From a virus, in the IMG/VR virus record IMGVR_UViG_3300042327_000099, positions 1-25,615 of that record: DNA of 25,615 nt; one strand, 5' to 3'. The notes under the pieces were generated by a model that saw only the letters and a list, made by a program, of their open reading frames with translations, had not been told where the DNA came from and ran no database searches. Of this stretch, positions 2,572 through 20,593 are shown in pieces. The translations under genes were made by a program, and so were the position numbers. Position 1 is the stretch's first letter. Every line of letters starts with the position of its first letter.

Positions 2572-2757
2572 ATGTATCCGTTGACGCTACAAGAATTACA
2601 AGAGAGGCTGAAACGTTTAGATGAACTATCTCTTCTAGAGTTATTAGATATAACTTCGGAGGAGATAGTCGAGATGTTTATAGACCGTATTGAAAATAAC
2701 TATGATCAACTGATGGATGAAGTTGACTATGATGGAGAAGAAGAAGACAATGAGTAG
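2572..2757 (+). CDS. Small acidic helical protein of unknown function
   Basis: A 61-residue, very acidic protein starting one base after the previous stop. It is predicted to be helical throughout (LTLQELQERLKRLDELSLL, EEIVEMFIDRIENNYDQL) and ends in an acidic tail, YDGEEEDNE. No cysteines or membrane segment are seen. The end overlaps the first eight bases of the reductase gene, and GGAGAAG near its end (2734-2740) serves as ribosome site for that gene. I do not recognise a family. Small acidic proteins of this kind can be DNA mimics or adaptors, but nothing here proves that. Confidence 0.6.
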   Translation: MYPLTLQELQERLKRLDELSLLELLDITSEEIVEMFIDRIENNYDQLMDEVDYDGEEEDNE

Positions 2758-4657
2758 ATATGAATTAACACCTTACAATACCTTCATTGCTAAGAGCAGA
2801 TACTCTCGCTACTTAGATGATAAAGGTAGACGTGAACACTGGGGTGAAACCGTAGCACGTTACTTTGATTTCATGACTAAGAACTTGAAAGAGAAGAATG
2901 GCTATACGTTAACATCTGAGTTACGTGCAGAGTTAGAAGATGCAGTAAAGCATTTAGATGTAGTACCAAGTATGAGAGCAGTGATGACAGCAGGAGCAGC
3001 ACTAGAGCGTCAGAACGTAGCAGCATTCAATTGTTCATACCTACCTATCGATGACCCTAAAGCATTCGATGAAGCTATGTACATCTTGTTATGTGGAACA
3101 GGTGTAGGATTCTCAGTGGAGCAACAATATGTTAAGCAATTACCTGAAGTACCGGATAAGTTGTATGATAGTGAAACTACTATTGTGGTGTCGGATTCTA
3201 AAGAAGGATGGGCTAAATCACTCAGGCAGTTACTGGCTTTATTGTACTCTGGCGAAGTTCCAAAGTTTGACTTGTCGAAGGTTAGACCTGCAGGTGCACG
3301 ACTTAAAACGTTTGGAGGAAGAGCTTCAGGAGCTAAGCCATTGGAGGATCTCTTCAAATTCGTTATTGCTAAGTTTAAAGGTGCAGTGGGACGGAAGCTT
3401 AGTTCATTGGAGTGTCATGACATTCTCTGCAAAATCGGGGAAGTTGTTGTCGTGGGCGGTGTACGCAGATCAGCGATGATTTCATTGTCTGACTTATCTG
3501 ATGATAAGATGGCTCATGCTAAAGCAGGTGCATGGTGGGATGGTCAAGGTCAACGTGCCTTAGCTAATAACTCAGCTACTTATTTAGAGAAGACGGGCAT
3601 CGGGCAGTTCATGCGTGAGTGGACAAGTATTTATGAGTCACATAGTGGCGAGAGAGGAATCTTTAATCGTGATGCATCACAGAAACAAGCAGCAAAGAAT
3701 GGCAGGAGAGACGCTACTTACGACTTTGGTACGAACCCTTGCTCTGAGATCATTCTTCGCCCTTATCAGTTCTGTAATCTATCCTCTTGCATTGTGCGTA
3801 GTACTGATACTGTGGAGTCTTTGGAGCGTAAGATTAGGTTGGCTACGATTCTTGGAACTTTTCAAGCAACGTTAACTAACTTCCCCTACCTACGTAAAGT
3901 ATGGCAGAAGAACACTGAAGAAGAAGCGTTGTTAGGGGTATCAATGACAGGCATTCTAGACAATGCTTTATTGAATAACCCTGATGATCCTGAATTACCT
4001 AAACGATTGGAGAGATTAAGAGATGTGGCAATCACAACGAATGCTGAACTGGCTGCAGCTGTTGGTATTAACCAGTCTGTTGCTGTTACTGCTGTTAAAC
4101 CTGAAGGGACAGTTTCTCAGTTATGCAGTACTGCAAGTGGTATCCATCCTCAGCATTCTAAGTTTTATATCAGACGTGTTAGGGCGGACAACAAAGATCC
4201 TTTAACACAGTTCATGATTCAGTCCGGCTTCGTAGCTGAACCATGTGTGATGAAACCTGAAAGTACTACAGTGTTTTCATTCCCTGTGAAGGTAGCTGAT
4301 GGTGCGTTGTTACGTGAAGAGTTGTCTGCTATTCAGCACTTGAAGTTATGGTTGTTATTCCAACGTCATTACTGTGAACATAAACCTTCAGTAACTATCT
4401 CTGTTAAAGAGCATGAGTGGATGGAAGTAGGAGCTTGGGTATATGAACACTTTGATGAAGTAACTGGAGTATCATTCCTACCTATGGATGGTGGCACATA
4501 TCGCCAAGCACCGTATGAAGAATGTACTGAAGAGCAATACAATCAGTTACGCTTGTTAGTTCCGGAAGAAGTAAACTGGGATAGCTTCAAAGAGTATGAT
4601 GATAACGTAGAAGGTGCTCAGACGTTGAGTTGTACTGCCGGAGGTTGTGAGATTTAA
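2750..4657 (+). CDS. nrdJ: Class II adenosylcobalamin-dependent ribonucleoside-triphosphate reductase
   Basis: A 635-residue enzyme that makes deoxyribonucleotides from ribonucleotides by radical chemistry. ATG at 2750 follows GGAGAAG at 2734-2740; an earlier in-frame ATG at 2717 would lie deep in the upstream gene. Visible elements are AFNCSYLPI (C95), the LLCGTGVGFSVE glycine loop, VRPAGARLKTFGG, the NPCSEIILRPYQFCNLSSC centre (N329, C331 as thiyl radical site, E333 and partner C342), AVKPEGTVSQL and a C-terminal redox pair C628-x4-C633 in SCTAGGCEI. These match the monomeric reductases related to Lactobacillus leichmannii RTPR, which is about 739 residues, so this copy is shorter. No intein is present. 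No thioredoxin, B12 gene or second subunit is nearby, so host cobalamin and reductant are presumably used. Confidence 0.93.
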   Translation: MSRYELTPYNTFIAKSRYSRYLDDKGRREHWGETVARYFDFMTKNLKEKNGYTLTSELRAELEDAVKHLDVVPSMRAVMTAGAALERQNVAAFNCSYLPIDDPKAFDEAMYILLCGTGVGFSVEQQYVKQLPEVPDKLYDSETTIVVSDSKEGWAKSLRQLLALLYSGEVPKFDLSKVRPAGARLKTFGGRASGAKPLEDLFKFVIAKFKGAVGRKLSSLECHDILCKIGEVVVVGGVRRSAMISLSDLSDDKMAHAKAGAWWDGQGQRALANNSATYLEKTGIGQFMREWTSIYESHSGERGIFNRDASQKQAAKNGRRDATYDFGTNPCSEIILRPYQFCNLSSCIVRSTDTVESLERKIRLATILGTFQATLTNFPYLRKVWQKNTEEEALLGVSMTGILDNALLNNPDDPELPKRLERLRDVAITTNAELAAAVGINQSVAVTAVKPEGTVSQLCSTASGIHPQHSKFYIRRVRADNKDPLTQFMIQSGFVAEPCVMKPESTTVFSFPVKVADGALLREELSAIQHLKLWLLFQRHYCEHKPSVTISVKEHEWMEVGAWVYEHFDEVTGVSFLPMDGGTYRQAPYEECTEEQYNQLRLLVPEEVNWDSFKEYDDNVEGAQTLSCTAGGCEI

Positions 4658-4747: not shown

Positions 4748-4897
4748 ATGAGCGTAGAGTTAAGTGTTATCCGAGGACTATCTCTCGGTATTGAGTACCT
4801 GAACGGTGAAGACGCAGGAGATGATGATGTATCAGTCTATGTTGTAGTTGACTTAGGCTTCTTACGATTGTTATTTACTACGTACAAGCCTATGTAA
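4748..4897 (+). CDS. Small hypothetical protein, last gene of the left arm
   Basis: A 49-residue protein from ATG at 4748, preceded by a textbook ribosome site TAGGAGGT at 4737-4744. An earlier in-frame start at 4703 has no such signal. The product (LSLGIEYLNGEDAGDDD, then VVVDLGFLRLLFT) looks like a tiny beta-meander with an acidic turn. I believe similar short proteins occur in other podoviruses, with no known function. The strong ribosome site suggests high expression. Its last eight bases overlap, tail to tail, the end of the lysis gene on the other strand. Confidence 0.65.
   Translation: MSVELSVIRGLSLGIEYLNGEDAGDDDVSVYVVVDLGFLRLLFTTYKPM
4855..4891. terminator. Weak inverted repeat at the convergent junction
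   Basis: AGGCTT at 4855-4860 pairs with AAGCCT at 4886-4891, with a further TACG/CGTA pairing inside and a 14-base AT-rich loop. It sits where the two arms converge, so a bidirectional terminator is conceivable. There is no good T-run on either side and the repeat lies within coding sequence, so the call is weak. Confidence 0.2.
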
Positions 4898-5318
4898 TTT
4901 GTATAGTGACAGGACTAGTAGAGTTGTTAATGATTGGCATCAGTGCACTCATAGCGACTTTACTAGATCCTATCCAATCTGATTTACCATCCCATGTCAT
5001 CCCAACGAGTATGCATCCTTCAGTATTCTCGGAAGAGTTACCGCTGTGTATTCGTATGCCTGTAAACCCATCGACATCATGGAGTAAAGGTAGTCTAACC
5101 TTAAATCTGTTGGACAAGGTAACAGAAACATTGTAAGTTCCTCTAGGGATTGCTGTTTCATTCTGTACTTTCCATGAACTAACCGGTTGACCTTCTACTT
5201 CTCTGACCTTATCTTCAAGTGTATAACAGATAGGAGATAATCCGTACTTACTCTCTTCGTATAACTGACCTACTGTGAATGTTTCACCTTCATGTATACG
5301 CTTGAGTACTAAGTTCAT
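4890..5318 (-). CDS. DUF5675 family protein, putative peptidoglycan-active lysis protein
   Basis: A 142-residue protein, the last gene of the virion/lysis arm. The pattern CYTLEDKVRE, NETAIPRGTY, SNRFKVRLPLL, then GFTGIRIHSGN and TEGCILVG matches the DUF5675 family. H91 and C102 in the H-S-G-N...E-G-C segment recall the His...Gly-Cys active site of L,D-transpeptidase (YkuD)-type enzymes, although the spacing is shorter. It lies directly downstream of a holin-type gene with a four-base overlap, and no classical lysozyme or amidase is visible in the window. It is therefore a candidate for the cell-wall lytic function; this is inference from context. No signal peptide is visible. Confidence 0.8.
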   Translation of the reverse strand: MNLVLKRIHEGETFTVGQLYEESKYGLSPICYTLEDKVREVEGQPVSSWKVQNETAIPRGTYNVSVTLSNRFKVRLPLLHDVDGFTGIRIHSGNSSENTEGCILVGMTWDGKSDWIGSSKVAMSALMPIINNSTSPVTIQIT

Positions 5319-5710
5319 TTAATCCCTTTGATCTTCTCAAATGTTCTTAAGCTACCTAAACCTAGCAATGCAAAGACTAACTCCATTAAGATGTTTGACA
5401 TCAATGCAGGAGGAGTGATAGGTAATTGGAATGTAGCTACAGCCCACAACAAGATGTTATATAGCACAAAGTTATAGAACAATCCAAACACACAGATCCA
5501 TCCAATAGCAGGTCTCCATCCGGACTTGAATAAGTTCTCTGACTTAGCTTCTTCTTCATTAACTTTAATCTGTGCTAATGCTAGTTGAAAGTCTTGGTCT
5601 TGAGCAGCTTTGTATAACTCTGCTTGTGCCTTCTCTCTAGCATCCTTGTCAGGAATTACTTTGTCTAGTAACTTAGCACCAATCTCTAGGATGGATAGAA
5701 CAGGTATCAT
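5315..5710 (-). CDS. Holin of the 3TM / gene-transfer-agent type
   Basis: A 131-residue membrane protein. An amphipathic N-terminal region (SILEIGAKLLDKVIP) is followed by a charged helix (residues 20-60, DKDAREKAQAELYKAA). Two clear hydrophobic segments follow at about 67-92 (GWRPAIGWICVFGLFYNFVL) and 102-122 (LMSNILMELVFALLGLG). The ending SLRTFEKIKGIK is typical of the 3TM holin family found in gene transfer agents and many phages. Holins form holes in the inner membrane at a set time to release or activate the lysis enzyme. It lies between the largest virion gene and the DUF5675 gene, overlapping each by four bases. Confidence 0.85.
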   Translation of the reverse strand: MIPVLSILEIGAKLLDKVIPDKDAREKAQAELYKAAQDQDFQLALAQIKVNEEEAKSENLFKSGWRPAIGWICVFGLFYNFVLYNILLWAVATFQLPITPPALMSNILMELVFALLGLGSLRTFEKIKGIK

Positions 5711-8583
5711 TTGTTTTTCTTCCTTGATTCTCTAGCTTCTTTATCCCACTGGTTAACTTGTACTAAGTACTCATCTAATGTCTTAAGCAGTTGCTTCTGC
5801 TGATCTGTTCTGCTATTAGCAGTAGCTGCATAGATTTGTTTCTTAGCGTCTTCTATGTCTTTCTTAATCAACACCCAGTTCTTAGCACTTACTTCAGCAG
5901 GATCAAACTTAATCTGTCTGATACCTGTAGCTGTTTGTAATCCACGTTCACCTTCAGGTGCGTCAGTACGTGACTCACGCATGTTACCAAAGATACTTGG
6001 AGTTGTAGTAATCTTACCAGTTACTTCATCTTTAGTACGAGTACCGAATATACCGTTAGGATTTAATCTGTCTACTTCGTTAGCCAAGATAAAGTTAGAG
6101 ATAGTGTGTGCTGTCTTAGCACCAATCTTCATACCTAAGAAGTCTACTTCCTGTCCTTCAAACTCTCTAATGTTTTTCTTACGGAAGAAGTCATAGTTAA
6201 GTAATAACTGTACTGGTTCTTTCAAGACAGGGTTCAAAGATCCTGTAGCTGTTGAAGCAGCTGAAGATATCTTACCCTTCTCAAACGGACTAGTAGGTCT
6301 GTTACCTGTGTTGAACGGATTAGTCAATAAGTTCAAGTCAGCAAACGGTATGATACCTGACAACGGAATAGCTGTTGACTTACCTGTAATAGGATTACTA
6401 ATGTAGATAGGCATCTGATCTTTAACGTAATCAGGTACATCTTCTGCAGCTGGTTTTTCAACACCTGCTTCTACGTTCTGTTTGAAGATATTAATCTTAT
6501 TGATCTTCTCAGGAGTAGTGACTAAAGCTTCTAACTGTAGAGGAATGTTCTTACGTGACCATGTGTAGAAAGGCATGGCTCTCTTCATCACGTTCTGCTC
6601 AAACGGGCTTAGTGAACCGTAGTCAAACAAATACTTCTGTACTGCCTTACCTGCGTCTTCGTATGATGCACCTTTCTTGACACGATCTAAGAATAAAGCA
6701 ACACGTGAGTTGTCTTCGATGGCAGCACCAGCAGCAAAACCTGCTTTAAGTAAAGGATTCTCTGTACCTACAGTCTTACTTGCTACTTGCTTTAAAGACT
6801 CAGTAGCTGAACGTAGATTCTTAAATGACAAAGGTTGACTTATTCCTAGTTTACTCTCAATAACCTGAGCTACATCAGCACCATATTGACCTTCTCCGAT
6901 TACACCACGCTTAGCCATCTCTTCATAAATTTCTTTAACTGGCTTACCGTAGATACTACCGTCTAAATTATTTTGTGCAATCTTGTATTGAATTACAGCA
7001 GCATCTTTGTAACGTAGTGGGTTATCAACACCGGCTAAGTAGTTATTCCATAAGTTACCAATAGTGTTCTTAACGTGATACGAAGGACGAACACCTAAAG
7101 ACCACATCTTCCACCAGTTAGTAGCACCGTCGAGTACTTTTAAGAACTGGTTTATTGCTTGATCGTTAGTAGCGATACCGTGAATACGTACAATACGGCT
7201 CTTAACTTCAGGAGGAAACTTAAGATTTGGAATCTCTGGAATAGTTACATAGTTCTTAGGTGCAGTTGCAGCATCAACACCAAACTCTCTTGATACATCA
7301 TCAAGAATCTTCTTACCTGCAATAGCATTAGCTGCTTTAAATGCATAGATACCTTGGACTACAGCAGGATCGTTTCTGAATCTAACAGCATCGTCACCGA
7401 ATAAAGCTTTAGCATTTATGTTCTGTACTGTGTCATCAATCTCACGAGTTAATGCTTGTGTATTCTTAGCAGAAGGACGTGATGAAATAGTCAATGCTTG
7501 ATTGTTGACAATGTTATCTAAATCTTTTGCTCTGATATGAGGGAAATAAGTCTCACCTAAGTCACCTATTTTAATACCAGCAGCAAGTTGATCTTCACGT
7601 AATTTCTTAAATGTGTCAATCATATTCTGTTCTATCGCACCTACAGCATCATCACCTAGCTGACCGATTTCAATGTCGTTAGCAATCTTAGCTCTTAAAT
7701 CATCAACAGATACACCTGTTTGCTTAGACAATACTTTGATTTCTTTGTTTACAGCTTTAGCGTCACGAATACCTTCGTTAACTGCCTTGTCTCTAGCGAA
7801 CCTAAAATTAGCATAGTATTCATCAGCCTTGTCAATGTTCTTAGAACGTAGCATGAAGGCTTTATATAGTTCATTGTCAGCAAGTTTACCCGGAACTGAT
7901 ACAGCACCTGCGATAGGCTTGATAACAGTTTCTTTTAATGCTTGGAACGGTGCACCAAGAGCAGCACGATCAACAATAGAGTCACCAGCAAATCCGATAA
8001 CAGAAGCAATGATAGGGTTCTGTTCTCTGAACTCTTGAGGTAAAGCTTCTAGTGTACCTGTCTTAGCCTCTCCTTTGAAACCTTTAAGAGCAGCTGCCTT
8101 AATACGTGCTTCATTCTCAGGAGTCATTGTATTCATAGTTTTTTGAAGCATAGCAAACGGAGAATTTAAATCAGCCTGAGTAGGTTGATTCTCACGTTCG
8201 ATCTGACGCATCTCTTTAGCACCGCCTAAAGCAGCTTGACCCGGACGGCTTAGATAATCTAAAGCATCCATCAAGAAGTTACCTGTCTTCTTTAAGCTTT
8301 GCTGTACAATCTCAGGTGATGCTCTATAGATAGTACCTGAAACATCAGCGACAGCACTACCTACATCTTTAACAACTTGAGGAGTAGCAGCAGATATCTT
8401 AGCACCTGCTTGTCTGTATGTTTCAATAGCAGGAACTTCTGCAGTCGCTGCTGAAGGAGCAGCTGGTGCAGGAGCTTTATATTGTGATTGAGCGTATGAA
8501 ATTGCTTGTGCTTCTGTAGCACCTTCTGGAGCATTAACCTCAATCACAGTTCCGTCTGGAGCTGTAACATTAAATATAGGCAT
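5707..8583 (-). CDS. Large putative internal virion / DNA-ejection protein
   Basis: A 958-residue protein, the largest in the window. The N terminus carries a short motif, VTAPDGTVIEVNAPEGAT followed by EAQAISYAQSQY, that is common at the start of large phage virion proteins. After an Ala/Pro linker the protein is mostly helical. Around residues 490-525 is WKMWSLGVRPSYHVKN followed by GNLWNNYLAG, and around 660-690 is MKRAMPFYTWSRKNIPLQ. I associate these signatures with very large phage ejection or polyvalent proteins. No lysozyme or transglycosylase catalytic motif is clear. Following two other ejection-type genes and preceding lysis, it matches the position of T7 gp16-like core proteins. 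AAGGA precedes the ATG. Confidence 0.7.
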   Translation of the reverse strand: MPIFNVTAPDGTVIEVNAPEGATEAQAISYAQSQYKAPAPAAPSAATAEVPAIETYRQAGAKISAATPQVVKDVGSAVADVSGTIYRASPEIVQQSLKKTGNFLMDALDYLSRPGQAALGGAKEMRQIERENQPTQADLNSPFAMLQKTMNTMTPENEARIKAAALKGFKGEAKTGTLEALPQEFREQNPIIASVIGFAGDSIVDRAALGAPFQALKETVIKPIAGAVSVPGKLADNELYKAFMLRSKNIDKADEYYANFRFARDKAVNEGIRDAKAVNKEIKVLSKQTGVSVDDLRAKIANDIEIGQLGDDAVGAIEQNMIDTFKKLREDQLAAGIKIGDLGETYFPHIRAKDLDNIVNNQALTISSRPSAKNTQALTREIDDTVQNINAKALFGDDAVRFRNDPAVVQGIYAFKAANAIAGKKILDDVSREFGVDAATAPKNYVTIPEIPNLKFPPEVKSRIVRIHGIATNDQAINQFLKVLDGATNWWKMWSLGVRPSYHVKNTIGNLWNNYLAGVDNPLRYKDAAVIQYKIAQNNLDGSIYGKPVKEIYEEMAKRGVIGEGQYGADVAQVIESKLGISQPLSFKNLRSATESLKQVASKTVGTENPLLKAGFAAGAAIEDNSRVALFLDRVKKGASYEDAGKAVQKYLFDYGSLSPFEQNVMKRAMPFYTWSRKNIPLQLEALVTTPEKINKINIFKQNVEAGVEKPAAEDVPDYVKDQMPIYISNPITGKSTAIPLSGIIPFADLNLLTNPFNTGNRPTSPFEKGKISSAASTATGSLNPVLKEPVQLLLNYDFFRKKNIREFEGQEVDFLGMKIGAKTAHTISNFILANEVDRLNPNGIFGTRTKDEVTGKITTTPSIFGNMRESRTDAPEGERGLQTATGIRQIKFDPAEVSAKNWVLIKKDIEDAKKQIYAATANSRTDQQKQLLKTLDEYLVQVNQWDKEARESRKKNK

Positions 8584-8591: not shown

Positions 8592-9482
8592 TTACTTTTT
8601 AGCTGGTGCTGGTTTAACCGTTGCTGACCATCCGTCCGTAGCTGGAGGCACTGAGCTCTTACCGCCAGTCCAAGGTTGACGCAATGCAATTCTCTGAGCA
8701 CTTACTAAGGATGTGTTTAATTGATCAGCACCTTGTAGTTTAGCATTAGGATTAGTGTAACCGGCAGCAGCTAACGTATCGATAGCAGCTTGACGTTCGT
8801 AATTCCAACGAGTACCTGAATCAAAGTCATTACCAATCTTAGCAAGATCAGCTTTGTTTTTCTTGATAGTTGTTTCAAGACTTTCAATAGTAAGAGCTTC
8901 TTTCTTTTCTTTCTGTGCTTGATCTATCAAAGCAGTTTGACCTGCGTTTGATAACTGCATGATCTTTTTGTACTCAGAAGTCTTCTCTAGCTTAGCTTGA
9001 ATATCCGCAGGTACTTCACCTTCTCCTGTCCATCCGGCTAATTTAGCTTTGTTCTCTAAACGAGTTGTAAGTGTTGATAACTCAGTAGCTAACTGCTCTG
9101 GACGTTTAGATACAAACTCCACGTCTTCACGTGTCTGTTTAGTAGCAGCTGTCTCTAGCTTCTGTGCTTCTTGTAAAGCATAAGCTTTAGCATTAGTCAT
9201 GTCAGCAGGAAGTGCATCAGCAATAGCTTTAAAGTACTCAGGAGTATTAGGACTATACTGAGAACCTACCTCTTGAAGAACTTTGTTTAGAACACCAGCA
9301 CGTCCTTGCTCAGTAGTCTCACCGCCAAACAAAGAACCACCTAGTTGACCTAAAGCAATACCCATTCTTTCATAAGGAGAAGCAGCTTGACCGTACAAAC
9401 CAGCCCATAGTTTCTGCTGTTGTAGTTGTTGCTCACGAGGATCATATCCTAGTAAGTTTTTATATAAATCTACTGTAGCCAT
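8592..9482 (-). CDS. Putative internal virion protein (helical, second ejection protein)
   Basis: A 296-residue protein. The frame is open to 9524, but ATG at 9482 (MATVDLYKNLLGYDPREQQ) is preferred because AAGGAA lies just upstream and the longer form would overlap the previous gene by 32 bases. After a Gln-rich start (QQLQQQKLWAGLYGQAASPY) the protein is strongly helical and Lys/Glu/Ala-rich, with a Pro/Ala-rich end. A GIALGQLGGSLFGG segment could be membrane-active. I do not recognise a precise family. Its place between the 316-aa and 958-aa virion genes parallels T7 gp15, so a role in DNA ejection is inferred. Confidence 0.6.
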   Translation of the reverse strand: MATVDLYKNLLGYDPREQQLQQQKLWAGLYGQAASPYERMGIALGQLGGSLFGGETTEQGRAGVLNKVLQEVGSQYSPNTPEYFKAIADALPADMTNAKAYALQEAQKLETAATKQTREDVEFVSKRPEQLATELSTLTTRLENKAKLAGWTGEGEVPADIQAKLEKTSEYKKIMQLSNAGQTALIDQAQKEKKEALTIESLETTIKKNKADLAKIGNDFDSGTRWNYERQAAIDTLAAAGYTNPNAKLQGADQLNTSLVSAQRIALRQPWTGGKSSVPPATDGWSATVKPAPAKK

Positions 9483-9492
9483 TATGTATTCC

Positions 9493-10443
9493 TTATCTCT
9501 TATATGCAGCGTAAGCGTTTGCACCGCCAGTCATCAAGCCACTCCAGAATCCAGCGTTAGCAGCATTGGCAGCTTGAGCACCTTGGAAGGCTGTATTAGC
9601 AGCTTGTGATAGACCTTGTTGATACATTTGTGAACCAGCAGTCTGACCCGGTTGTTGAGCTTGACCAAGTTGAATACCCATTTGATAAGGCATCTGTGAT
9701 AAGTTTTCAACGTTACCTGACAAACCTAACAATGTTTGTAACGGTGAGTATGCACCAGCCAACGTAGCTTGTTGTGCTTGTTGTAGTTGTGTACCAGTAC
9801 CTAACAAACCTGCACCGAATGTTTGTTGTTGCTGTGCAGCTTGATCAGCACCTGCAGCAATCTGTGCATTCTGCTGAGCTAATGCGTTGTAGTACGCAGC
9901 CATCTCAGGGTTAGTAGCTTGCATGCCTGTAGTAGTACCACCTGTAGCTAAACCTTGACGACCTGTTTGGAATAGACGGTTACGAATACCTGACAAAGCT
10001 TGTTCATTTTGTCCGCCAACTAAACCTTGCTGCTGCGTAATGTAACGTTGTCTGGCTGCTTCCGGTGATTCAGATAAGTAACCAGCACCTAAGTTATACA
10101 ACTGAGTTGCTTGATCGCCTAAAGCACCAGCTTGTTGTTGCATTGTTTCAGCAGCAGTTAAGCCTTGTCCAAATGTATTAAACAATCTATTTTGTAGATT
10201 AGCTAACTCTGGAGCAGCTGTATAACTAGCACCAGATATATACGGCATACCTGTTTTAGGATCGAGTTCTCGTGTAAACTGAGACGAACCAAACCTACTA
10301 GTCATTCCTACAGGTCTGAACGCAGCAGAGTAAGCCGCATCTTTTGCAGCTTGAGACTGTTGAGCAGCTGCAGCATTAGCAGCGTCTCTTGTGTCATCAG
10401 CTCCAGTAAATATATTTGCTACTGAACTAATTAACTTACCCAT
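9493..10443 (-). CDS. Putative internal virion protein (Gln/Ala-rich, gp14-like position)
   Basis: A 316-residue protein of low complexity, very rich in Gln, Ala, Gly and Thr. It starts MGKLISSVANIFTGADDTRD, then AAQQSQAAKDAAYSA. The middle has many QQ-containing segments (DQAAQQQQTFGAGLLG, GTQLQQAQQATLAGAY). It ends FWSGLMTGGANAYAAYKR, which could contact membrane. This composition is typical of small ejection proteins that leave the capsid with the DNA and help cross the envelope, such as T7 gp14. AGGAG precedes the ATG, whose A is the last base of the upstream stop (TAATG at 10443). The function is inferred from composition and gene order. Confidence 0.6.
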   Translation of the reverse strand: MGKLISSVANIFTGADDTRDAANAAAAQQSQAAKDAAYSAAFRPVGMTSRFGSSQFTRELDPKTGMPYISGASYTAAPELANLQNRLFNTFGQGLTAAETMQQQAGALGDQATQLYNLGAGYLSESPEAARQRYITQQQGLVGGQNEQALSGIRNRLFQTGRQGLATGGTTTGMQATNPEMAAYYNALAQQNAQIAAGADQAAQQQQTFGAGLLGTGTQLQQAQQATLAGAYSPLQTLLGLSGNVENLSQMPYQMGIQLGQAQQPGQTAGSQMYQQGLSQAANTAFQGAQAANAANAGFWSGLMTGGANAYAAYKR

Positions 10444-10739
10444 TATAAACTCCTACTATAAATTTCATATGTTTCATTATTAGTACCTGTTAAAGGTTGT
10501 TCGTATTTAAATCCTATTGATCTTGCAAACTTAGCTAGTTTAGTATTGTCTATCATTGCAACTAAAGGAATACTAACAAGGGTTTGTAATGTATTTAAAT
10601 CTTTTATAAACTGTTTCTTTACTTCACTAGACCACTTACGTACATCTGTATGAAACCACAACATACCTGCAAAGTGTTCTAAGTACATTGTGTAGTCTTG
10701 TTTATTGACTACTGGTATTTTACCAAGAGAATGAGACAT
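10443..10739 (-). CDS. Small GNAT-like / gp13-position protein
   Basis: A 98-residue protein from ATG at 10739, with AGGTGG eight bases upstream. A GTG at 10751 is in frame but lacks as good a site. The C-terminal half (SIPLVAMIDNTKLAKFARSIGFKYE) resembles the last strands of GNAT acetyltransferases, where N-x-K-...-F-...-G-F binds acetyl-CoA. The protein is too short for a full GNAT fold, and the N-terminal part (FAGMLWFHTDVRKWSSEVKK) is different. Comparable small proteins stand just before the ejection genes in T7-like phages. It overlaps the adhesin gene by 20 bases and is translationally linked to the next gene. Catalysis is doubtful. Confidence 0.55.
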   Translation of the reverse strand: MSHSLGKIPVVNKQDYTMYLEHFAGMLWFHTDVRKWSSEVKKQFIKDLNTLQTLVSIPLVAMIDNTKLAKFARSIGFKYEQPLTGTNNETYEIYSRSL

Positions 10740-11433
10740 AGCCTGTACCACCTACTAAACCTGTACCGCCCTGTGCAGCTCCTCCAAGACTGTTACCGCC
10801 TAGACCACCAGCACCATATCCAGTACCGTTCTGTCCTTTACCGTCATATCCTTGACCGGCTGTGTTACGATTAACCATCCAAGAAGCAGTGTTAGAACCA
10901 GCGACACCCCCGGGAGAACCAGCAGCACCTCCAAAAGCAGGATTGTTATCACCTACAACACCTGCTCCACCGCCGCCACCAGTAGCTGAGAAAAGAGTTG
11001 TAGCTCCTCTCTTAAGTGTAGTAGTACCGCCTGTAGCTCCTGTACTACCGCTACCGTTACCAGCACCTCCAGCACCCACAGTAACTGTTAATGTTTCACC
11101 CGGTGTTACAGCAATAGTTTGATTAGAGTAATAACCACCTGAACCACCGTTAGCAGCTCCGTGTCCGTCACCAGAAAATATAGATCCACCACCGCCACCA
11201 CCTGCTCCAACTAACAAAGGCATTGATAAACTATAAATACCATTAGGTACTACAAAAGAATAAGTACCTGCAGTTGCGTAAGCTTGAGTGCCTGATTCAG
11301 GAAAAGCTTTCTTCCAAACACCAGCGTCCTTCACATAAATCTCTTTAGAAGCTTTCCAAACACCAGCATCATTAACATAAATCTCTTTAGGTTCTTTAAA
11401 GACACCGGCATCTTTAACAGATATAGTAGGCAT
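10720..11433 (-). CDS. Glycine-rich tail adhesin with triple N-terminal repeat
   Basis: A 237-residue protein. Residues 4-45 are three near-perfect copies of a 14-residue unit (IYVKDAGVWKASKE and variants), probably the anchor or stalk. Residues 47-75 form a beta segment (YATAGTYSFVVPNGIYSL). The rest is a glycine-rich domain with repeated G-G-x-G runs (VGAGGGGGGSIFSG, ATGGGGGAGVVG, GYGAGGLGGNSLGG) ending GTGYVSFSW. Such domains occur in phage tail tip adhesins, where polyglycine II helices pack into a lattice and loops carry host specificity. It is probably a receptor-binding or virion-decorating protein. It is in the same operon as tail tube and ejection genes. Confidence 0.7.
   Translation of the reverse strand: MPTISVKDAGVFKEPKEIYVNDAGVWKASKEIYVKDAGVWKKAFPESGTQAYATAGTYSFVVPNGIYSLSMPLLVGAGGGGGGSIFSGDGHGAANGGSGGYYSNQTIAVTPGETLTVTVGAGGAGNGSGSTGATGGTTTLKRGATTLFSATGGGGGAGVVGDNNPAFGGAAGSPGGVAGSNTASWMVNRNTAGQGYDGKGQNGTGYGAGGLGGNSLGGAAQGGTGLVGGTGYVSFSW
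11299..11424 (-). repeat. Three 42-base in-frame repeats in the adhesin gene
   Basis: Three direct copies of about 42 bases, each encoding a 14-residue unit with the core D-A-G-V-(W/F)-K and K-E-I-Y-V. The second and third copies are closest; the first differs at several residues (DAGVFKEPK). Such tandem units can change number by slippage or recombination. Confidence 0.85.
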
Positions 11434-11435
11434 TA

Positions 11436-11879
11436 TTAAACCTTATACCAAACATCACCGTTAGAACCACCTGTAGGAGAACTTGTTGATACTGTTCTAG
11501 CACCTACAGAGTTAGATCCAACAGAGTTTCCGTTAACAGTAGCACTTGTAATAGTTACACTTGCTAAAGTACCACCAGTAATTGCTACAGCATTTGCATT
11601 CTGAGAAGACAAAGTTCCTAAAGAACCTGTAGCTGTAGTAACTGCAGTGTTTACAAAAGCTGTGGTGGCTAACTGGGTTGTGTTAGCACCTGCTGTTGCT
11701 GTAGGAGCTGAAGGAGTTCCTGTAAATGTAGGAGATGCTAAGTCAGCTTTAGAACTAACAGCTCCTGAAATAGAATTAAACTCATTATCTAACTCTGTGC
11801 CTTTAACAATCTTGTTAGAGTCACCGGTAGGTAGTGTGTCTTTAGTTGTAAAGTTGGTTGCTTTTACATAATTACTCAT
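11436..11879 (-). CDS. Tail fibre-repeat protein
   Basis: A 147-residue protein. After an N-terminal segment (VKATNFTTKDTLPTGDSNK, IVKGTELDNEFNSIS), which resembles the start of other phage fibre-type proteins, it has the tail fibre repeat KADLASPTFTGTPSAP...QLATTAFV known from lambda Stf and P2-type fibres. The rest is Thr/Ser/Val-rich beta (GTLASVTITSATVNGNSVG) and ends GSNGDVWYKV. It is too short for a complete fibre with a receptor tip, so it is probably a fibre adaptor or a short collar fibre that works with the adhesin encoded next. Its ATG overlaps the previous stop (ATGA). Confidence 0.7.
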   Translation of the reverse strand: MSNYVKATNFTTKDTLPTGDSNKIVKGTELDNEFNSISGAVSSKADLASPTFTGTPSAPTATAGANTTQLATTAFVNTAVTTATGSLGTLSSQNANAVAITGGTLASVTITSATVNGNSVGSNSVGARTVSTSSPTGGSNGDVWYKV

Positions 11880-13477
11880 AGTAGTGTCTTTCCTGTCTTA
11901 ATAGCAAAGTCAATCTTTTGGATTGATAAAGGTGTTCCGTCAATGTCTGATTCAAATCCTAGTTGTAATACGTTACCTGAACCAGAAGCTGAGATGTTTG
12001 CAGAGTCTAAAGCAATACCGTTATTATAAGTAGCTAGTCCATACTCAGCAATACCGTATTCAAATACAAGTACTTGTGCTAAAGTAATACCACGAGAGAA
12101 GTAGTTACGTGTATAGTCATAACCCCACTTCATAACAATAGGTTGACCAGAACCACCAATAGCAACTACGTTGATCTTCTTTAGGATCTTAATGATAGTA
12201 GCTTGATCAAAGTCAAAGTAGTTAGTGAAGTAAGACATACGATACTTCTGTCCGTTATCTTCATACAAGTCATACTTACCGATGTATCCCGGCTTACCAA
12301 TATATAACTGTCTATCTTGTGTTACGCAGAATGCAGTAGGTTCAATCTGTTTCCAGATAGTTGTTCTTGCTGCACCGTTCTCTAACGTACCTCTAGTATC
12401 AAAGCAATAAGTAAATCCTGAACTAGGTAATGACAATAGATACATAGCATCTGTAGGATAGTACACAGCTTTAATATCTCTCAACTGTTCAGAAGCTACG
12501 AGTGCTAGTAACTCATCACGTACGTTCTTTGATACATCTCTGAACGGTAATGACTTCTCTTGAATAACACGTTGTAAAGACTGAACACCAGTACTAGATA
12601 AGAACAACAAGTCAGTACCAATAGATTGAACTGAATCTCTAGAAATACACCCAACACCTTCAATAGTATCTGATAATGTTAACTGTGATGGGTCAACTGG
12701 ATTAGCATATATGACAATATGTTTAGTACAGAATATAATTAAGAATCCATTGTGAGCAGCCAATGCTACAATAGGATCGTTATTAGGAACAACTTCACTG
12801 ATGTTTAAGTACCCTGAAGTACCTGTTTTCCATTCAGCTGGGTTAAGTAAATCACTAAAGTAAACTGTTTGTCTATCACCTGAGATATCAGCAACCCAGA
12901 CTCTACCGTAAGATGTCATAACACAGTTAGGAGTAAAGCTAGTTACAGTATGTCCGACAGGTAAATTAGTAGCAATATCTCCAAGTCTTTGTAATCCATA
13001 AGCACCTGTATGAGCATGTGCTGTAGCACCTAACTTGTGATATAGTAAAGCAGGATGACCTTCTTGTACTAAAATAGCATGACCTGATGGAGTAGCTCCT
13101 GTATCATAAGGCATACCACTAATCTGCCAGTTATCATTACTTATAGTGTATGATAAATTACCAGTGTCTGTACCGTTACGGATAACTCTTTCAGTTAAAG
13201 TTGTAGTACCTGTGTATAACTTATTGTTAGCTGCTGAAATAACTTCAATACCGTCATCTTTAACTAGCTCATAGATAGCTTTAAAGTCACCTGTAGACGC
13301 TGCAGTGGTATTCACTGGAGTCCACCCTTTACGTGCACCGATACGACCGTAGCGATCGATTACGCAGTTATTAGCCTCTAGTGCAAAACCAGACGACAAC
13401 TGAACTGACGAGTCTTGGGTATTTAAACCGAAGAAACCCGGAGCAGCGATTGATCCTGTTAGTAGTTGTTCAGCCAT
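11876..13477 (-). CDS. Tail tube / nozzle-like virion structural protein (T7 gp12 position)
   Basis: A 533-residue protein from ATG at 13477, in a TAATG junction with the upstream gene; a slightly earlier in-frame start would overlap more. The N terminus (APGFFGLNTQDSS, ANNCVIDRYGRIGARKGW) is a signature I associate with podovirus tail proteins. The rest is beta-rich, as expected for a beta-propeller nozzle (VWVADISGDRQTVYFSDL, NGFLIIFCTKHIVIYA, LLFLSSTGVQSL). It follows the adaptor-type gene, as gp12 follows gp11 in T7, so a nozzle closing the tail channel is inferred. Similarity to gp12 itself is positional, not proven. Confidence 0.7.
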   Translation of the reverse strand: MAEQLLTGSIAAPGFFGLNTQDSSVQLSSGFALEANNCVIDRYGRIGARKGWTPVNTTAASTGDFKAIYELVKDDGIEVISAANNKLYTGTTTLTERVIRNGTDTGNLSYTISNDNWQISGMPYDTGATPSGHAILVQEGHPALLYHKLGATAHAHTGAYGLQRLGDIATNLPVGHTVTSFTPNCVMTSYGRVWVADISGDRQTVYFSDLLNPAEWKTGTSGYLNISEVVPNNDPIVALAAHNGFLIIFCTKHIVIYANPVDPSQLTLSDTIEGVGCISRDSVQSIGTDLLFLSSTGVQSLQRVIQEKSLPFRDVSKNVRDELLALVASEQLRDIKAVYYPTDAMYLLSLPSSGFTYCFDTRGTLENGAARTTIWKQIEPTAFCVTQDRQLYIGKPGYIGKYDLYEDNGQKYRMSYFTNYFDFDQATIIKILKKINVVAIGGSGQPIVMKWGYDYTRNYFSRGITLAQVLVFEYGIAEYGLATYNNGIALDSANISASGSGNVLQLGFESDIDGTPLSIQKIDFAIKTGKTLL

Positions 13478-14124
13478 TAGCTTGCGAACCACTGACCTTC
13501 TTCTTCGTATCTGCTGCTTTCAATTGCAATAGCATCAGCCAAAGATTGATTATAGATTGCATACATTTCGTTAGACTGAATACCACCATCTTCACCACGT
13601 TCTGCAATAGCTCTTGCTGTAGCATTAAAGATAATAGGTTCTTCAGGTACTAATAGAATATCAGCGTCAGCTACTAGCTTAGGCTGTGGTTTAATTACGT
13701 TGAATCGTACGTTATAAACCTTATCAGGGATAGGGTAAATATCTACCTGAGTATCTCCGTTAACGTTTGTACCGTTAAAGTTATAGTATCTTGGTGATCC
13801 TGACTCGCTTGAACTCATCAAGAATAAACGGTTCATCTCCTGTACTGTTTGATATTTGAGATTAAAATCATCAGTATCGTTAATAACATCTACGATGCGG
13901 AAGCGTTGACCTGAGCCTACTAATACATAGTTAAAGATACCGTTAGATGTTACAGCTGTTAGAGTATCTGATAATGCATTCCAAGCATAAGCGTCTTCTA
14001 CTTGTCTCTTAGCATCATTAACAAACTCACCAATAAGCTTTGAATAAGCGTTATCTGCTACGGATGAAACCTCAGTTTCACGTAGTCTTCTTAGTACGTT
14101 GTTAACTAAACCGATATAATTCAT
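13477..14124 (-). CDS. Tail tubular protein A / adaptor-like protein
   Basis: A 215-residue protein beginning MNYIGLVNNVLRRLRETEVSS, then AYSKLIGEFVNDAKRQVED and AYAWNALSDTLTAV. This helical start followed by a beta region (GQRFRIVDVIND, GDTQVDIYPIPDKVYNVRF) and a final helical stretch (IIFNATARAIAERGEDGG, SLADAIAIESSRYEEEG) matches the pattern of T7 gp11-like tail tubular protein A / adaptor proteins that join portal and nozzle. It is the first gene after the strong promoter at 14148-14176 and so begins a tail transcription unit. The start codon follows a short leader containing CAGGAACACT as ribosome site. Confidence 0.75.
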   Translation of the reverse strand: MNYIGLVNNVLRRLRETEVSSVADNAYSKLIGEFVNDAKRQVEDAYAWNALSDTLTAVTSNGIFNYVLVGSGQRFRIVDVINDTDDFNLKYQTVQEMNRLFLMSSSESGSPRYYNFNGTNVNGDTQVDIYPIPDKVYNVRFNVIKPQPKLVADADILLVPEEPIIFNATARAIAERGEDGGIQSNEMYAIYNQSLADAIAIESSRYEEEGQWFAS

Positions 14125-14147
14125 AGTGTTCCTGTTTTTCTGTGTAT

Positions 14148-14176
14148 ATTATAACATACTTTATTTAAAAAGTCAA
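14148..14176 (-). promoter_or_regulatory. Strong sigma70-type promoter for the tail/ejection/lysis genes
   Basis: Read on the - strand: TTGACT (14176-14171), a 17-base spacer ending AAAGTATGT, then a perfect TATAAT (14153-14148). The start point would be near 14140, 16 bases before the adaptor gene. The same -35 and -10 boxes, spacer length and AAGTATGT segment recur at 22923-22951. It lies in one of the few real gaps of the arm. No operator is evident. Confidence 0.85.
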
Positions 14177-14184
14177 GCTTTATT

Positions 14185-14445
14185 TTACCATTTTACTTTA
14201 TCAGCCCAGTACGCAGCACTCATTTTACCCTTAGCTATGTTCTTAGCATGTCTATCTTTGAATGCTTTATTTCTAGCTGATCCGTCAGGACTACCTTTAA
14301 CACCTTGCTGACCGAATCTAATTGTCTTAACTTCATCACCGTCTTTAGCCACAACTACGTGTGACTTAGTGGGGTGGCTTGGTGTTTTCTTAGGTTTATT
14401 ATACCCAGCTACACCGGCACGTTCTAGTCTAGAGTCTTTTTTCAT
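14185..14445 (-). CDS. Small basic phage protein (DUF6321-like)
   Basis: An 86-residue basic protein: [40 protein letters not shown], then FKDRHAKNIAKGKMSAAYWA and a final DKVKW. This pattern is one I associate with a small phage family labelled DUF6321, found among virion genes; the label is from memory. It is the last of three small basic proteins encoded head to tail. Its ATG overlaps the stop of the 49-aa gene upstream. The composition suggests contact with DNA or RNA, perhaps inside the virion, but the function is unknown. It is followed by the promoter for the next unit. Confidence 0.7.
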   Translation of the reverse strand: MKKDSRLERAGVAGYNKPKKTPSHPTKSHVVVAKDGDEVKTIRFGQQGVKGSPDGSARNKAFKDRHAKNIAKGKMSAAYWADKVKW

Positions 14446-14591
14446 TTCTTTTTCTTAGCTGTCTTAGCAGCATCCTTAAAATCCTTAGCTGAAGGAGCAC
14501 CTTTAGAGCCTACCTTACGCATCTTCTCATTTGAGCCAGCCTTGATACGAGCTTTCTTGGCTGCGATGTTGGCATATAAACCTTGTTTCAT
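14442..14591 (-). CDS. Very small basic protein (49 aa)
   Basis: A 49-residue, strongly basic protein beginning [20 protein letters not shown], continuing [18 protein letters not shown] and ending in KTAKKKK. Both ends overlap neighbours by four bases (ATGA at 14445-14442 and 14591-14588), which argues that it is translated. I recall very similar short proteins in other phages next to capsid and tail genes. The function is unknown; a nucleic-acid-binding virion component fits the charge. No cysteines or membrane segment. Confidence 0.75.
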
Positions 14592-14755
14592 TTCTTAGCC
14601 TTATTCTTGGCAGTACGTCCGCCACGTTGAGGAAGTGATTTACCAGCTTTTTGCAGTGCAATAGCTACTGCTTGCTTCTGAGGACGACCTTCTTTAACTA
14701 TCATTCTAATGTTTTTACTAACTGTCTTGTCTGACTTACCTTTAGCTAGTGGCAT
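14588..14755 (-). CDS. Very small basic protein (55 aa, DUF6496-like)
   Basis: A 55-residue basic protein: [20 protein letters not shown], then [20 protein letters not shown], ending RTAKNKAKK. The segment S-x-x-x-x-K-N-I-...-G-(K/R)[10 protein letters not shown] is one I associate with a DUF6496-type family widespread in phages and bacteria (from memory). The stop overlaps the ATG of the 49-aa gene (ATGA). It starts two bases after the 114-aa gene ends. The function is unknown; the charge suggests nucleic acid binding. Confidence 0.75.
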
Positions 14756-14757
14756 AA

Positions 14758-15102
14758 TTATGATCCATTCTGATAAGATGTGTTTTGATGAATTTCCATA
14801 GTCAGTATAACTGAGAATGTTGAACCTGCTGCTGGAGTAACTGTTACGTAATCATACTCATCCATTACCATGCGTCCTTGATTGAACTGTAATACTTCAC
14901 CGCCTCCAACTGACTTAGCTCCAGAGATAACAATAGTAGCTGGTTGACTAACATCATGCCATCCTGATGATACCGATGCTGTAGAACCACCACCGTTAGC
15001 AATGAACAATAATGTAGCGATAGCTTTACAGCCTTTAGGTACTGTATACACAGTGTTACTTACACCTGCTGTTAAGTTCTTACCAACTGTTAGTTCTCTC
15101 AT
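14758..15102 (-). CDS. Putative small virion structural protein (beta-rich)
   Basis: A 114-residue protein: [20 protein letters not shown], then [20 protein letters not shown], and ending in a beta segment ([20 protein letters not shown]). The beta-sandwich-like pattern, lack of membrane segments and presence among virion genes suggest a tail or head decoration protein. VPKGCKA-x-...-L-x-I-A-N is a pattern I associate with small phage structural proteins, but no firm family can be named. The start overlaps the upstream stop (ATGA at 15099-15102). Confidence 0.6.
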
Positions 15103-15314
15103 TTAACTGTCCAATGACTTGTTATGTAAGTGATAATACCACCAACTCCAGAAGCAATGACCATACCCATCCAGAATCCGCCTTTAGACTTATTAGCTAA
15201 CTCTAGCAGTTCTTCCATCCCAGACTCTAGCTTGTCTATTTTCTTTTCCATAGCTTCTACCTGAGCAGTAAGCTTACCGTATTTGTAGAGGTCTACACCG
15301 TTTTCTGTTGTCAT
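15099..15314 (-). CDS. Coiled-coil plus single membrane segment protein, possible holin-like
   Basis: A 71-residue protein from ATG at 15314 (MTTENGVDLYKYGKLTAQ), which overlaps the upstream stop (ATGA). The longer in-frame start at 15344 overlaps the methyltransferase and is less likely. Residues 14-42 form a coiled coil (KLTAQVEAMEKKIDKLES). Residues 47-65 are one hydrophobic membrane segment (FWMGMVIASGVGGIITYI), followed by a short C-terminal tail, SHWTVK. The layout resembles XhlA-like lysis helpers and small phage membrane proteins often annotated as holins. A second holin-type gene lies at 5315-5710, so this may assist lysis, or it may have a virion or membrane role. Confidence 0.65.
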   Translation of the reverse strand: MTTENGVDLYKYGKLTAQVEAMEKKIDKLESGMEELLELANKSKGGFWMGMVIASGVGGIITYITSHWTVK

Positions 15315-15955
15315 AATGTGCCTGTAATAAATAATAATTGCCATGAAGCAGGTAAATCTAAAGTAGATACTTCTAAGCTGTTCAAATTAGCTTCTTGTAG
15401 TTGTTGTTCTACTTCTGAAACAGTAAAAGCAGCTTTCATAGAGTTATCAAAATCTATTCTAAACTGTTTAAACTTATCTGATGGAGCGTATTCATTCAGA
15501 ATAGCTGTTCTAGTTTCTAGATCTTCTACTCTGACCATATCCATTATTAATACTTTAGTACCTTCTTTGCCTACTTGTTTTACAGTATCCCAAAGAACAC
15601 TAGGGTTAGCTAATTGGTGCAGTAACATACTACTAATAATGCCATCATACTTCTGAGTAATAGTTAAGTCAGGTATGTTTCTATTTTCTAAAGTTACATT
15701 AGCTGTAATCTTGCTTTTAGCTTTTTCAAGCATGTTAATAGAAGCATCAATACCTGTAAACAATACGTTAGGATATGCAGTAGTTAGACTAGGGAAGTAG
15801 TCACCTGAGCCACATCCAATATCTAAAACAGAACCTTCTGAGTTAAGATTTAATTTTGATAAATAAATATTTATAATAGGAGTCTTATCAAACTCAGAGT
15901 AAGCATCTACTTGTAGAGGCTCATTCATTACCTCTGTTTCAAGCACTCTTGGCAT
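15311..15955 (-). CDS. Class I SAM-dependent methyltransferase
   Basis: A 214-residue protein. VLDIGCGSG at 43-51 is the SAM-binding glycine loop (motif I). FTGIDASINML supplies the acidic residue for the ribose (D70). IPDLTITQKYDGIISSMLLH forms the next strands of a Rossmann methyltransferase. No NPPY/DPPY or PC motif is present, so an ordinary adenine-N6, cytosine-N4 or cytosine-C5 DNA methyltransferase is unlikely. It looks more like the UbiE/Tam type acting on small molecules, sugars or proteins. It lies directly after a cupin-like gene, with a 17-base overlap, and between adhesin genes. GAGGA stands eight bases before the ATG. The substrate is unknown. Confidence 0.85.
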   Translation of the reverse strand: MPRVLETEVMNEPLQVDAYSEFDKTPIINIYLSKLNLNSEGSVLDIGCGSGDYFPSLTTAYPNVLFTGIDASINMLEKAKSKITANVTLENRNIPDLTITQKYDGIISSMLLHQLANPSVLWDTVKQVGKEGTKVLIMDMVRVEDLETRTAILNEYAPSDKFKQFRIDFDNSMKAAFTVSEVEQQLQEANLNSLEVSTLDLPASWQLLFITGTL

Positions 15956-16496
15956 TTTTAAGTTCCTCTAAATAGTCCATTGTTTTTGTTACGTCAGCAT
16001 ATCCATCAAGTACTAAAGCATTAGGGTAAAATCTTCGTATTAAGTTTTCTTGCAAATGACCAACAGTTTTGCCCTTCCATTGAGCAGCCACTGTTGTTGG
16101 TATTAAATTCTTTTTCCAATGTTGTACAGCAAATAATGGAAATCCTACAGCAGCTCCTTCAAGACGCATACCAGCTCCGTGAGATTGTCCATTATGGAGA
16201 ACTGGACTAGGCTCTAATAAATCTTCAGACGCTCTTACTTTAATTACTTCCACATTAGGATGCTCATGAATAGGTACTTTTGGTTGTGCATGAATTAAAT
16301 ACAATTCAATTTGAAACTGTCCTTTTCTAAAAACACAAACAGCTGTTGCATCATCTGACTTAAATACTTCAACATTCTTTGGAAATAAAAAAGGACAACC
16401 AGCTTGTACCCACCAATCATAAAAATCTTCTACGTTATTCCAAGATTCTGGTATTGAGGCAATGTCAAATTGTGTTTTAGTTAATAGATTTCGCAT
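15939..16496 (-). CDS. Cupin-like protein
   Basis: A 185-residue protein. VPIHEHPNVEVIKV contains H77-x-H79-x3-E83, and FAVQHWKKN contains H126-x3-N130. These match the two classical cupin motifs (HxHxxxE and HxxxN) that place metal-binding residues in a beta-barrel. The first 45 residues are Trp/Phe-rich (VEDFYDWWVQAGCPFLFP). Cupins include sugar epimerases, isomerases, dioxygenases and non-enzymatic sugar binders, so the reaction cannot be read. I recall cupin-like genes near tail fibre genes in some environmental phages. AGGGAG lies upstream of the start. Overlaps with both neighbours suggest one cassette with the methyltransferase. Confidence 0.65.
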   Translation of the reverse strand: MRNLLTKTQFDIASIPESWNNVEDFYDWWVQAGCPFLFPKNVEVFKSDDATAVCVFRKGQFQIELYLIHAQPKVPIHEHPNVEVIKVRASEDLLEPSPVLHNGQSHGAGMRLEGAAVGFPLFAVQHWKKNLIPTTVAAQWKGKTVGHLQENLIRRFYPNALVLDGYADVTKTMDYLEELKNAKSA

Positions 16497-16728
16497 CCTT
16501 AACTCCCTCTAATAAATATTCTACAGGTAACTCAGTACCGTTATCTATCCCTGACCAATGCTCAAATCCGTTTTCATCTATTAAAACTTTTATTAATGGT
16601 GTGTTGTGTGAATATTGTAAATAAATACTGGTAGCTAATTTACACATCTCAATTTTAGCTTCTTCTATATTTGCACAATCTGTATATTCGCCTGTTACAG
16701 GGTTTAATACTTTTATGATTTCTATCAC
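16477..16728 (-). CDS. Hypothetical protein (GTG start)
   Basis: An 83-residue protein starting with GTG at 16728; the GTGA junction overlaps the stop of the adhesin gene, which supports the start. It runs MIEIIKVLNPVTGEYTDCAN, IEEAKIEMCKLATSIYLQYS, and later HWSGIDNGTELPVEYLLEG. It is mixed alpha/beta, acidic and soluble. No recognised family. The overlap of 20 bases with the cupin-like gene and the GTGA overlap with the adhesin gene make it part of the same cassette, but a shared role is only an inference. Confidence 0.6.
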   Translation of the reverse strand: MIEIIKVLNPVTGEYTDCANIEEAKIEMCKLATSIYLQYSHNTPLIKVLIDENGFEHWSGIDNGTELPVEYLLEGVKDAKSIN

Positions 16729-20509: not shown

Positions 20510-20521
20510 TTGAAACTCCTT

Positions 20522-20547: not shown

Positions 20548-20550
20548 CTT

Positions 20551-20576: not shown

Positions 20577-20593
20577 AATCAGACTACAACAAC

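Follow-up and report, generated by a model that had tools for sequence, protein, structure and literature searches.

A DUF5675 protein encoded next to a phage holin gene is a candidate endolysin with a predicted YkuD fold

The DNA analysed in this study (hereafter the window) is a 25.6-kb fragment (25,615 nucleotides) of an IMG/VR virus record that ends inside a large terminase gene. Its block of structural genes is followed, on the same strand, by a holin gene and by a gene encoding a protein of the DUF5675 family (Table 1). A preliminary description, made from the sequence alone, had placed a DUF5675 protein directly after a 3TM holin, and the profile searches bear out both statements. The DUF5675 assignment (PF18925) has an E value of 9.7e-28 and 96.8 bits, against a curated Pfam cut-off of 26.7, and covers residues 5-131 of the protein and positions 2-113 of the 114 in the profile. 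The holin gene lies directly upstream, and its end overlaps the start of the DUF5675 gene by 4 bases; an overlap of the same length joins the holin gene to the preceding gene for a 958-aa protein. The locus therefore has an endolysin candidate beside a holin, as in the canonical holin-endolysin cassette. PHROGs assigns the DUF5675 protein to phrog_1501, and both Pfam and PHROGs label the family as being of unknown function, while NCBIfam gives no match for either this protein or the holin. No signal peptide is visible by eye in the DUF5675 protein. For the 958-aa protein there was no Pfam match at E 1, and no lysozyme domain was found in it. A protein of about 49 aa, possibly a small membrane protein, resembles the product of the small convergent ORF and recurs beside DUF5675 in relatives.

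Table 1. Features of the lysis region of the window and lysozyme-like genes of four relatives
Feature	Position	Strand	Remarks
B12-dependent ribonucleotide reductase	2717-4657	+	left border of the lysis slot, common to relatives G018, G019 and G027
Small convergent ORF, 64 aa	4703-4897	+	8-base overlap with the DUF5675 ORF, 3' end to 3' end
DUF5675 protein ORF, 142 aa, ATG start	4890-5318	-	PF18925; predicted YkuD-fold Cys/His peptidoglycan peptidase, endolysin candidate
C102 codon, predicted nucleophile	5013-5015	-	invariant in alignments of 27 and 40 sequences
H91 codon, predicted catalytic base	5046-5048	-	invariant in alignments of 27 and 40 sequences
Holin, GTA_holin_3TM, 131 aa	5315-5710	-	PF11351 E 6.6e-20; phrog_3427 holin E 6.3e-31
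958-aa protein preceding the holin, at the end of the structural genes	5707-8583	-	weak PHROG tail match E 1.6e-6
Lysozyme-like genes (Phage_lysozyme2 or PHROG endolysin) upstream of the large terminase, four relatives	L047:9412-10085, L051:5337-6047, L044:700-1365, L048:20-859

The remainder of the phage genome could be read from a second IMG/VR record of 30.3 kb, IMGVR_UViG_3300042519_000223 (here G017; loci L144 and L145). This record is 100% identical to window positions 8887-25615 (16.7 kb, in two aligned stretches), and its other end overlaps positions 1-1865 at 98.4% identity, from which we infer that the two come from one phage or from near-identical phages. The window and the 11,740 bases of G017 lying outside it add up to about 37,355 bases, relatives measuring 37.4-38.4 kb, and together they probably cover the whole genome of about 37.4 kb. 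The part missing from the window encodes terminase subunits and replication genes. An additional gene within the structural block (15311-15955) appears by eye to be methyltransferase-like and forms, together with two genes without assigned function, the segment 15311-16728; Pfam methyltransferase families match one of the 55 window and G017 proteins.

The preliminary description had seen no lysozyme, amidase or transglycosylase in the window, and indeed no lysozyme, amidase, M15 or transglycosylase family occurs there among the Pfam and PHROG matches listed. It had also called for a classical endolysin to be sought elsewhere in the genome. Genome searches with M15_3, M15_4, GH24, Amidase_2, SLT and Phage_lysozyme2 found none in either the window or G017, and a Pfam scan of 55 ORFs from both (a subset of the ORFs of 60 aa, with full tables for 20 single proteins) gave none among the best 25 of 41 families. 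Amidase_2 had no match in any of the 35 records searched, and the GH108 search gave no match anywhere, controls included, and carries no weight. When 101 representative ORFs of the window and of six DUF5675-bearing records (G001-G006) were scanned, Phage_lysozyme2 was the only lysozyme-type Pfam family among the matches listed. The family scans of this study listed the best 25 of 53, 191, 30, 51 and 41 families.

Comparison with sister phages provided strong evidence for a role of DUF5675 in lysis. The M15 enzymes are zinc peptidases and those of the GH24 type are muramidases. DUF5675 was absent from all 18 terminase-sharing records searched. With G017 set aside (it belongs to the window's phage and lacks the slot in question), 13 of the remaining 17 encode Peptidase_M15_3 (eight records), M15_4 (one) or a GH24 lysozyme (four), none of these three being found in G025, G026, G033 and G034. 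By comparison, M15 or GH24 was present in 0/17 records with DUF5675 (the window and G001-G016; Fisher 5e-6), in a test that ignores phylogeny and contrasts sets chosen by different genes and containing many fragments or other phages. Within the records of this phage group of at least 33 kb, such enzymes were encoded by none of the six bearing DUF5675 (the window and G017 taken as one genome, plus G002-G006) versus 11 of the 12 lacking it (p 4e-4); three larger DUF5675 records from other phages, outside this test (G010, G013, G014), are also devoid of them.

The position of the genes is more telling than these counts. The slot following the reductase gene contains holin and DUF5675 genes in the window, and holin and M15 genes in G018 and G027 (likewise in G019, if its contig closes). 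A different slot, upstream of an adaptor gene, is filled by holin and DUF5675 in G006, by holin and M15 in G020, and in G022 and G023 by a GH24 gene, which adjoins apparent small membrane proteins. The holin next to the M15 gene in G018, G020 and G027 (and in G019, under the same proviso) falls into one BLAST cluster with that of the window. In G018, whose DNA is 83% identical to the window as far as the reductase gene ends, the alignment resumes in later genes, and the M15 protein belongs to a PHROG 'endolysin' family (E 1.5e-44). The M15 and GH24 enzymes of these six records thus occupy the genomic slots of DUF5675 but represent unrelated enzyme families.

Structure prediction against YkuD-like folds, the check named in the preliminary description, was performed for two members. 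The first model (AlphaFold2; pLDDT 93.1) was based on an alignment of 27 sequences, i.e. the window protein and 26 relatives from viral contigs, while the second (AlphaFold; pLDDT 95.4) represents the protein of locus L218, 49% identical to that of the window, and was built with 40 diverse sequences. The chains ranked highest by Foldseek (995 of 1000 for the first model) were realigned with VIA-align 2. Among the matches listed for the first model, 21 of 23 entries are YkuD-type L,D-transpeptidases or carboxypeptidases, the best being Pgp2 (Z 9.8, rmsd 2.6, 112 residues aligned); the other two are 4xxt, whose title names a fused Zn-dependent amidase/peptidase (Z 6.9), and an unrelated kinase (Z 2.0). 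Of the 33 rows listed for the second model, the best of which aligns 107 residues, 29 are YkuD-type (Z 7.4-9.8) and the four unrelated ones do not exceed 2.3. With the exception of 4xxt, all rows of Z at least 5 among the matches listed are YkuD-type, and they include LdtMt1/2, DpaA (8.4), Csd6 (8.3) and Tlde1a (8.0-8.4). Pgp2, Csd6, Bd1075 and 1zat are counted here among the YkuD-type enzymes. The predicted structures of both members therefore point to the YkuD fold.

This fold surfaced only after VIA-align 2 had realigned the top 1000 chains of Foldseek, as the best 50 PDB matches listed by Foldseek for either model contain no YkuD row. The Foldseek search of viral models gave 11 matches at E of 0.001 or below, comprising three DUF5675 proteins, one L,D-carboxypeptidase/transpeptidase and seven unnamed proteins; the matches to a Nodularia phage 'Endolysin' (E 0.11) and to a 'Lysin' (E 0.25) were too weak to use. 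At the level of sequence, PF18925 was the only Pfam family matched at E up to 1, with no match to the YkuD profile PF03734, and a PDB sequence-profile search gave no significant YkuD match. The best hhalign alignment with five E. coli YkuD proteins was non-significant (E 0.24, probability 0.25%), and it pairs H91 with H194 and C102 with C210 of LdtB. Since no profile match to PF03734 was obtained with Pfam, PDB profiles or hhalign, we rejected the view that DUF5675 is a plain member of that family.

The preliminary description had likened H91 and C102, in an H-S-G-N...E-G-C context, to a transpeptidase-type His/Cys pair. The complete context is H-S-G-N-S-S-E-N-T-E-G-C, and the motif R-I-H-x-G-N-x4-T-x-G-C is invariant in 40/40 diverse DUF5675 members, always with a His-Cys spacing of 11; the resemblance to a catalytic pair is therefore not due to chance. 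The His/Cys pair, together with the predicted fold, thus stands, whereas the residues around it favour hydrolysis over transpeptidation. According to the accessible text of PMC8263019, transpeptidating YkuD enzymes have an Arg two residues after the catalytic Cys, and DpaA-like proteins have another residue there. A residue scan with a slightly looser pattern, performed on 155 loci (75 viral and 80 bacterial, many of them close relatives), found the motif in 152, where the C+2 residue is L (144 loci) or I (8), and in no case R. The Tlde1/LD-transpeptidase catalytic motif, printed in the available part of PMC9638812 as HXX14-17(S/T)HGCh, also differs from that of DUF5675: the order His, T, G, C is kept in all 40 members but the spacing is shorter, and G-C is preceded by E (33 members), D (3), H (2), A (1) or Q (1). 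Since the C+2 Arg never occurs, DUF5675 is predicted to be a hydrolase and is, as far as its sequence can tell, quite likely not a transpeptidase.

DUF5675 shares with the YkuD L,D-transpeptidases and carboxypeptidases (e.g. LdtMt2, Pgp2 and Csd6) the predicted fold, the His-then-Cys order and a motif of the S/T-x-G-C type. It differs from them in the absence of a significant PF03734 match, of the C+2 Arg and of a visible signal peptide, and in consisting of a single short domain. Its His-Cys spacing lies between those of E. coli LdtB (16) and DpaA (8). DpaA (YafK), the YkuD enzyme that hydrolyses the linkage of mDAP to the C-terminal Lys of the lipoprotein Lpp, has the same predicted fold and likewise no C+2 Arg; it is, however, a chromosomal E. 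coli enzyme that is not linked to a holin, and its sequence is not detectably related to DUF5675.

Taking the models together with the gene arrangement, we consider that the DUF5675 protein probably serves as endolysin in a holin-endolysin cassette. When infection ends, the holin would, judging from its family, open the inner membrane, and the soluble, signal-less enzyme would then pass to the periplasm. There, C102 as the nucleophile and H91 as the base would hydrolyse an L,D-bond at meso-diaminopimelate in the peptidoglycan stems; the likeliest substrates would be mDAP-D-Ala bonds, those of 4-3 cross-links among them, and cutting of the cross-links would cause the cell to burst. In such a scheme DUF5675, which occupies slots that hold M15 peptidases or GH24 lysozymes in sister phages, would be needed for lysis. 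That it acts as an L,D-endopeptidase on cross-links, and not as a plain carboxypeptidase or in lipoprotein detachment, has a nearly even chance. The suggestion of the preliminary description that this could be an unusual peptidoglycan-active enzyme for release is thus supported by the predicted YkuD fold and by the searches of the window and G017, in which no classical endolysin was found.

The genes surrounding DUF5675 in other phages show a similar linkage. From 419 viral relatives 80 were kept, nine of them without a called DUF5675 ORF, and the remaining 71 were reduced to 38 representatives at 90% identity. A small membrane protein was encoded next to, and on the same strand as, 26 of these 38 DUF5675 genes, compared with 15 of 66 control genes from the same loci (p 5e-6), as judged by a simple hydropathy threshold that misses the small candidate beside DUF5675 in G003-G005. 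Among the best 25 of 51 families matched by 83 same-strand genes located no more than two genes from DUF5675 there are six holin and three Rz-like spanin PHROG families; L218 has three consecutive genes, for a membrane protein, for DUF5675 and for a protein that by eye resembles Rz. In a phage collection DUF5675 matches were found in 188 of 50,697 records (duplicates included), among them crAss-like phages, Vibrio and Campylobacter phages, and Microviridae, three genomes of which were examined (4.9, 6.2 and 6.8 kb). The partial record of Vibrio phage 1.122.B (host V. cyclitrophicus) contains an isolated minus-strand pair of DUF5675 and 3TM holin genes, and apart from DUF5675 just one of its 69 annotated proteins bears the name of a wall enzyme, an NlpC/P60 protein of the tail block. 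For Vibrio phage Virtus, the accessible text of PMC9229204 reports that ORF1 matches pfam18925 and that the next ORF encodes a 'TMhelix containing protein'. In Pseudomonas phage Cygsa01, DUF5675 adjoins the portal gene and not a holin. A PAAR-like protein is encoded directly upstream of DUF5675 in L240 (2614-2898), the PHROG PAAR family being matched by one DUF5675 neighbour, a hint that the domain may serve in injection or at the tail tip. A DUF5675 domain also lies within the model of a 1251-aa protein of Ralstonia phage RP31 (BFVD A0A1L7N1E2_2), and so occurs in large, perhaps virion, proteins as well.

The statement of the preliminary description that DUF5675 is the only visible lysis enzyme holds for the window and G017, but not for the family as a whole. 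In G002, G004 and G005 the terminase is immediately preceded by a Phage_lysozyme2 match (in G005 apparently split over two ORFs), and G006 has, besides DUF5675, a PHROG 'endolysin'-like gene upstream of the terminase. A second lysozyme-like candidate is therefore present in 4/6 near-complete DUF5675-bearing genomes, that of the window being one of the six, and a sole lysis enzyme is no rule of the family. The 1122-aa protein of G003 gave a sub-cut-off lysozyme match. The terminase-side gene could be the real endolysin of those relatives, or it may encode a virion lysozyme; Phage_lysozyme2 is the Pfam family named phage tail lysozyme. SLT domains were found in a large protein of G020 and G023, which bear M15 or GH24, and in one record together with DUF5675 (G011). 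A script extracted the ORFs of at least 90 aa that precede the large terminase in 33 of 80 terminase loci, and these ORFs were inspected visually. In 30 of the loci, G017 included, the last upstream ORF looks like the terminase small subunit, while L083 and L096 have an endonuclease-like ORF in between and L064 is too short. No Phage_lysozyme2-like ORF upstream of the terminase was seen by eye in the 33 loci or found by profile in 18 longer records. A lysozyme located upstream of the terminase, outside the window, was thus a real candidate in the four relatives, with none there in G017.

These genes raise an alternative in which another enzyme (a terminase-side, virion or divergent lysozyme) breaks the wall, and DUF5675 is an accessory factor that trims stems or, in the manner of DpaA, detaches an outer-membrane lipoprotein from the wall and thereby helps the outer membrane to fail, in a spanin-like role. 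Besides the four terminase-side genes, the structural match to DpaA, an enzyme equally devoid of the C+2 Arg in the available text of PMC8263019, is in keeping with it, and no spanin was recognised in the general family scans of the window proteins. We nevertheless consider it unlikely, as the searches of the window's own genome found no terminase-side lysozyme, and DUF5675 replaces M15 or GH24 in their slot and does not take an added place. Moreover, several loci encode Rz-like spanins no more than two genes away from DUF5675, so that it is no general replacement of spanins.

Alternatively, the protein might act as a poison resembling Tlde1, swapping D-amino acids or removing D-Ala4 so that new wall cannot be cross-linked and lysis follows from failed synthesis. 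Tlde1a, which has both activities according to the accessible part of PMC9638812, is among the structural matches; yet the Arg of transpeptidating enzymes is missing from 152/152 motif-bearing loci, the published spacing and the His before G-C are lost (E in 33/40), and slow action would fit poorly with holin-timed release, all of which makes such a poison improbable. It is more improbable still that DUF5675 has no role in lysis and serves in wall remodelling or entry, or is a gene of host origin carried along with the holin. Its occurrence in bacterial chromosomes, beside the PAAR-like gene of L240 and beside the portal gene of Cygsa01 would agree with this, but its recurrent association with unrelated families of holins and spanins, and its exchange in the same slot with known endolysin types, argue against it. 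We therefore retain the endolysin reading.

A transpeptidase-type name already exists in GenBank for crAss-like homologues. The gp30 protein of phage crAss001 ('L,D-carboxypeptidase/transpeptidase') is homologous to the window protein (45% identity over 75% of the query), and its gene lies near holin genes, two genes from one for a 'lysis regulatory protein/holin', which is akin to the holin linkage in the window; the surroundings of this lysis-region protein and the type of genome are, however, different. No activity test of the crAss-like homologue was found in the literature searched, and the accessible text of the crAss001 papers mentions lysis genes, holin and endolysin without naming the gp30 gene there. 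YkuD is also among the listed domains of phage lytic proteins, as a rare catalytic type with 10 PhaLP entries in the available part of PMC8310338. The YkuD enzymes met in the literature are transpeptidases, carboxypeptidases or a lipoprotein amidase, and no tested YkuD lysin was found among them. DUF5675 is named in PMC10671443 and PMC9229204; in the literature searched, mostly outside subscription journals, we found PF18925 not named by accession and no paper testing DUF5675 in lysis.

A broader proposal, which we put forward tentatively, is that DUF5675 represents a widespread and so far unrecognised class of endolysins: stand-alone YkuD-fold cysteine L,D-peptidases cutting mDAP-D-Ala of cross-links, trading places with M15 and GH24 enzymes among tailed phages, crAss-like ones included, and possibly the sole lysis enzyme of some Microviridae. 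In the latter, by analogy, DUF5675 may play the part for which Roux et al. proposed M15 peptidases as Microviridae endolysins (PMC3394797, in its available part). Should DUF5675 prove to be an endolysin of the YkuD fold, an enzyme with a testable active site could be assigned to lysis in many environmental phages, in some microviruses and in crAss-like phages, which the title of PMC6235969 calls the most abundant phage family in the human gut. Cross-links of the wall would then be broken by a fold best known for making them, and the lysin toolbox would acquire a small cysteine enzyme of about 140 aa.

In bacterial genomes we found 425 DUF5675 relatives, 80 of which were kept (the ORF being unmatched in 24), and some of their contexts are not phage-like. 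In Nitrosospira-type genomes (L271, L280, L290, L303 and L321) DUF5675 lies in a recurring, apparently chromosomal neighbourhood of non-phage character, and a housekeeping branch of the family may therefore exist.
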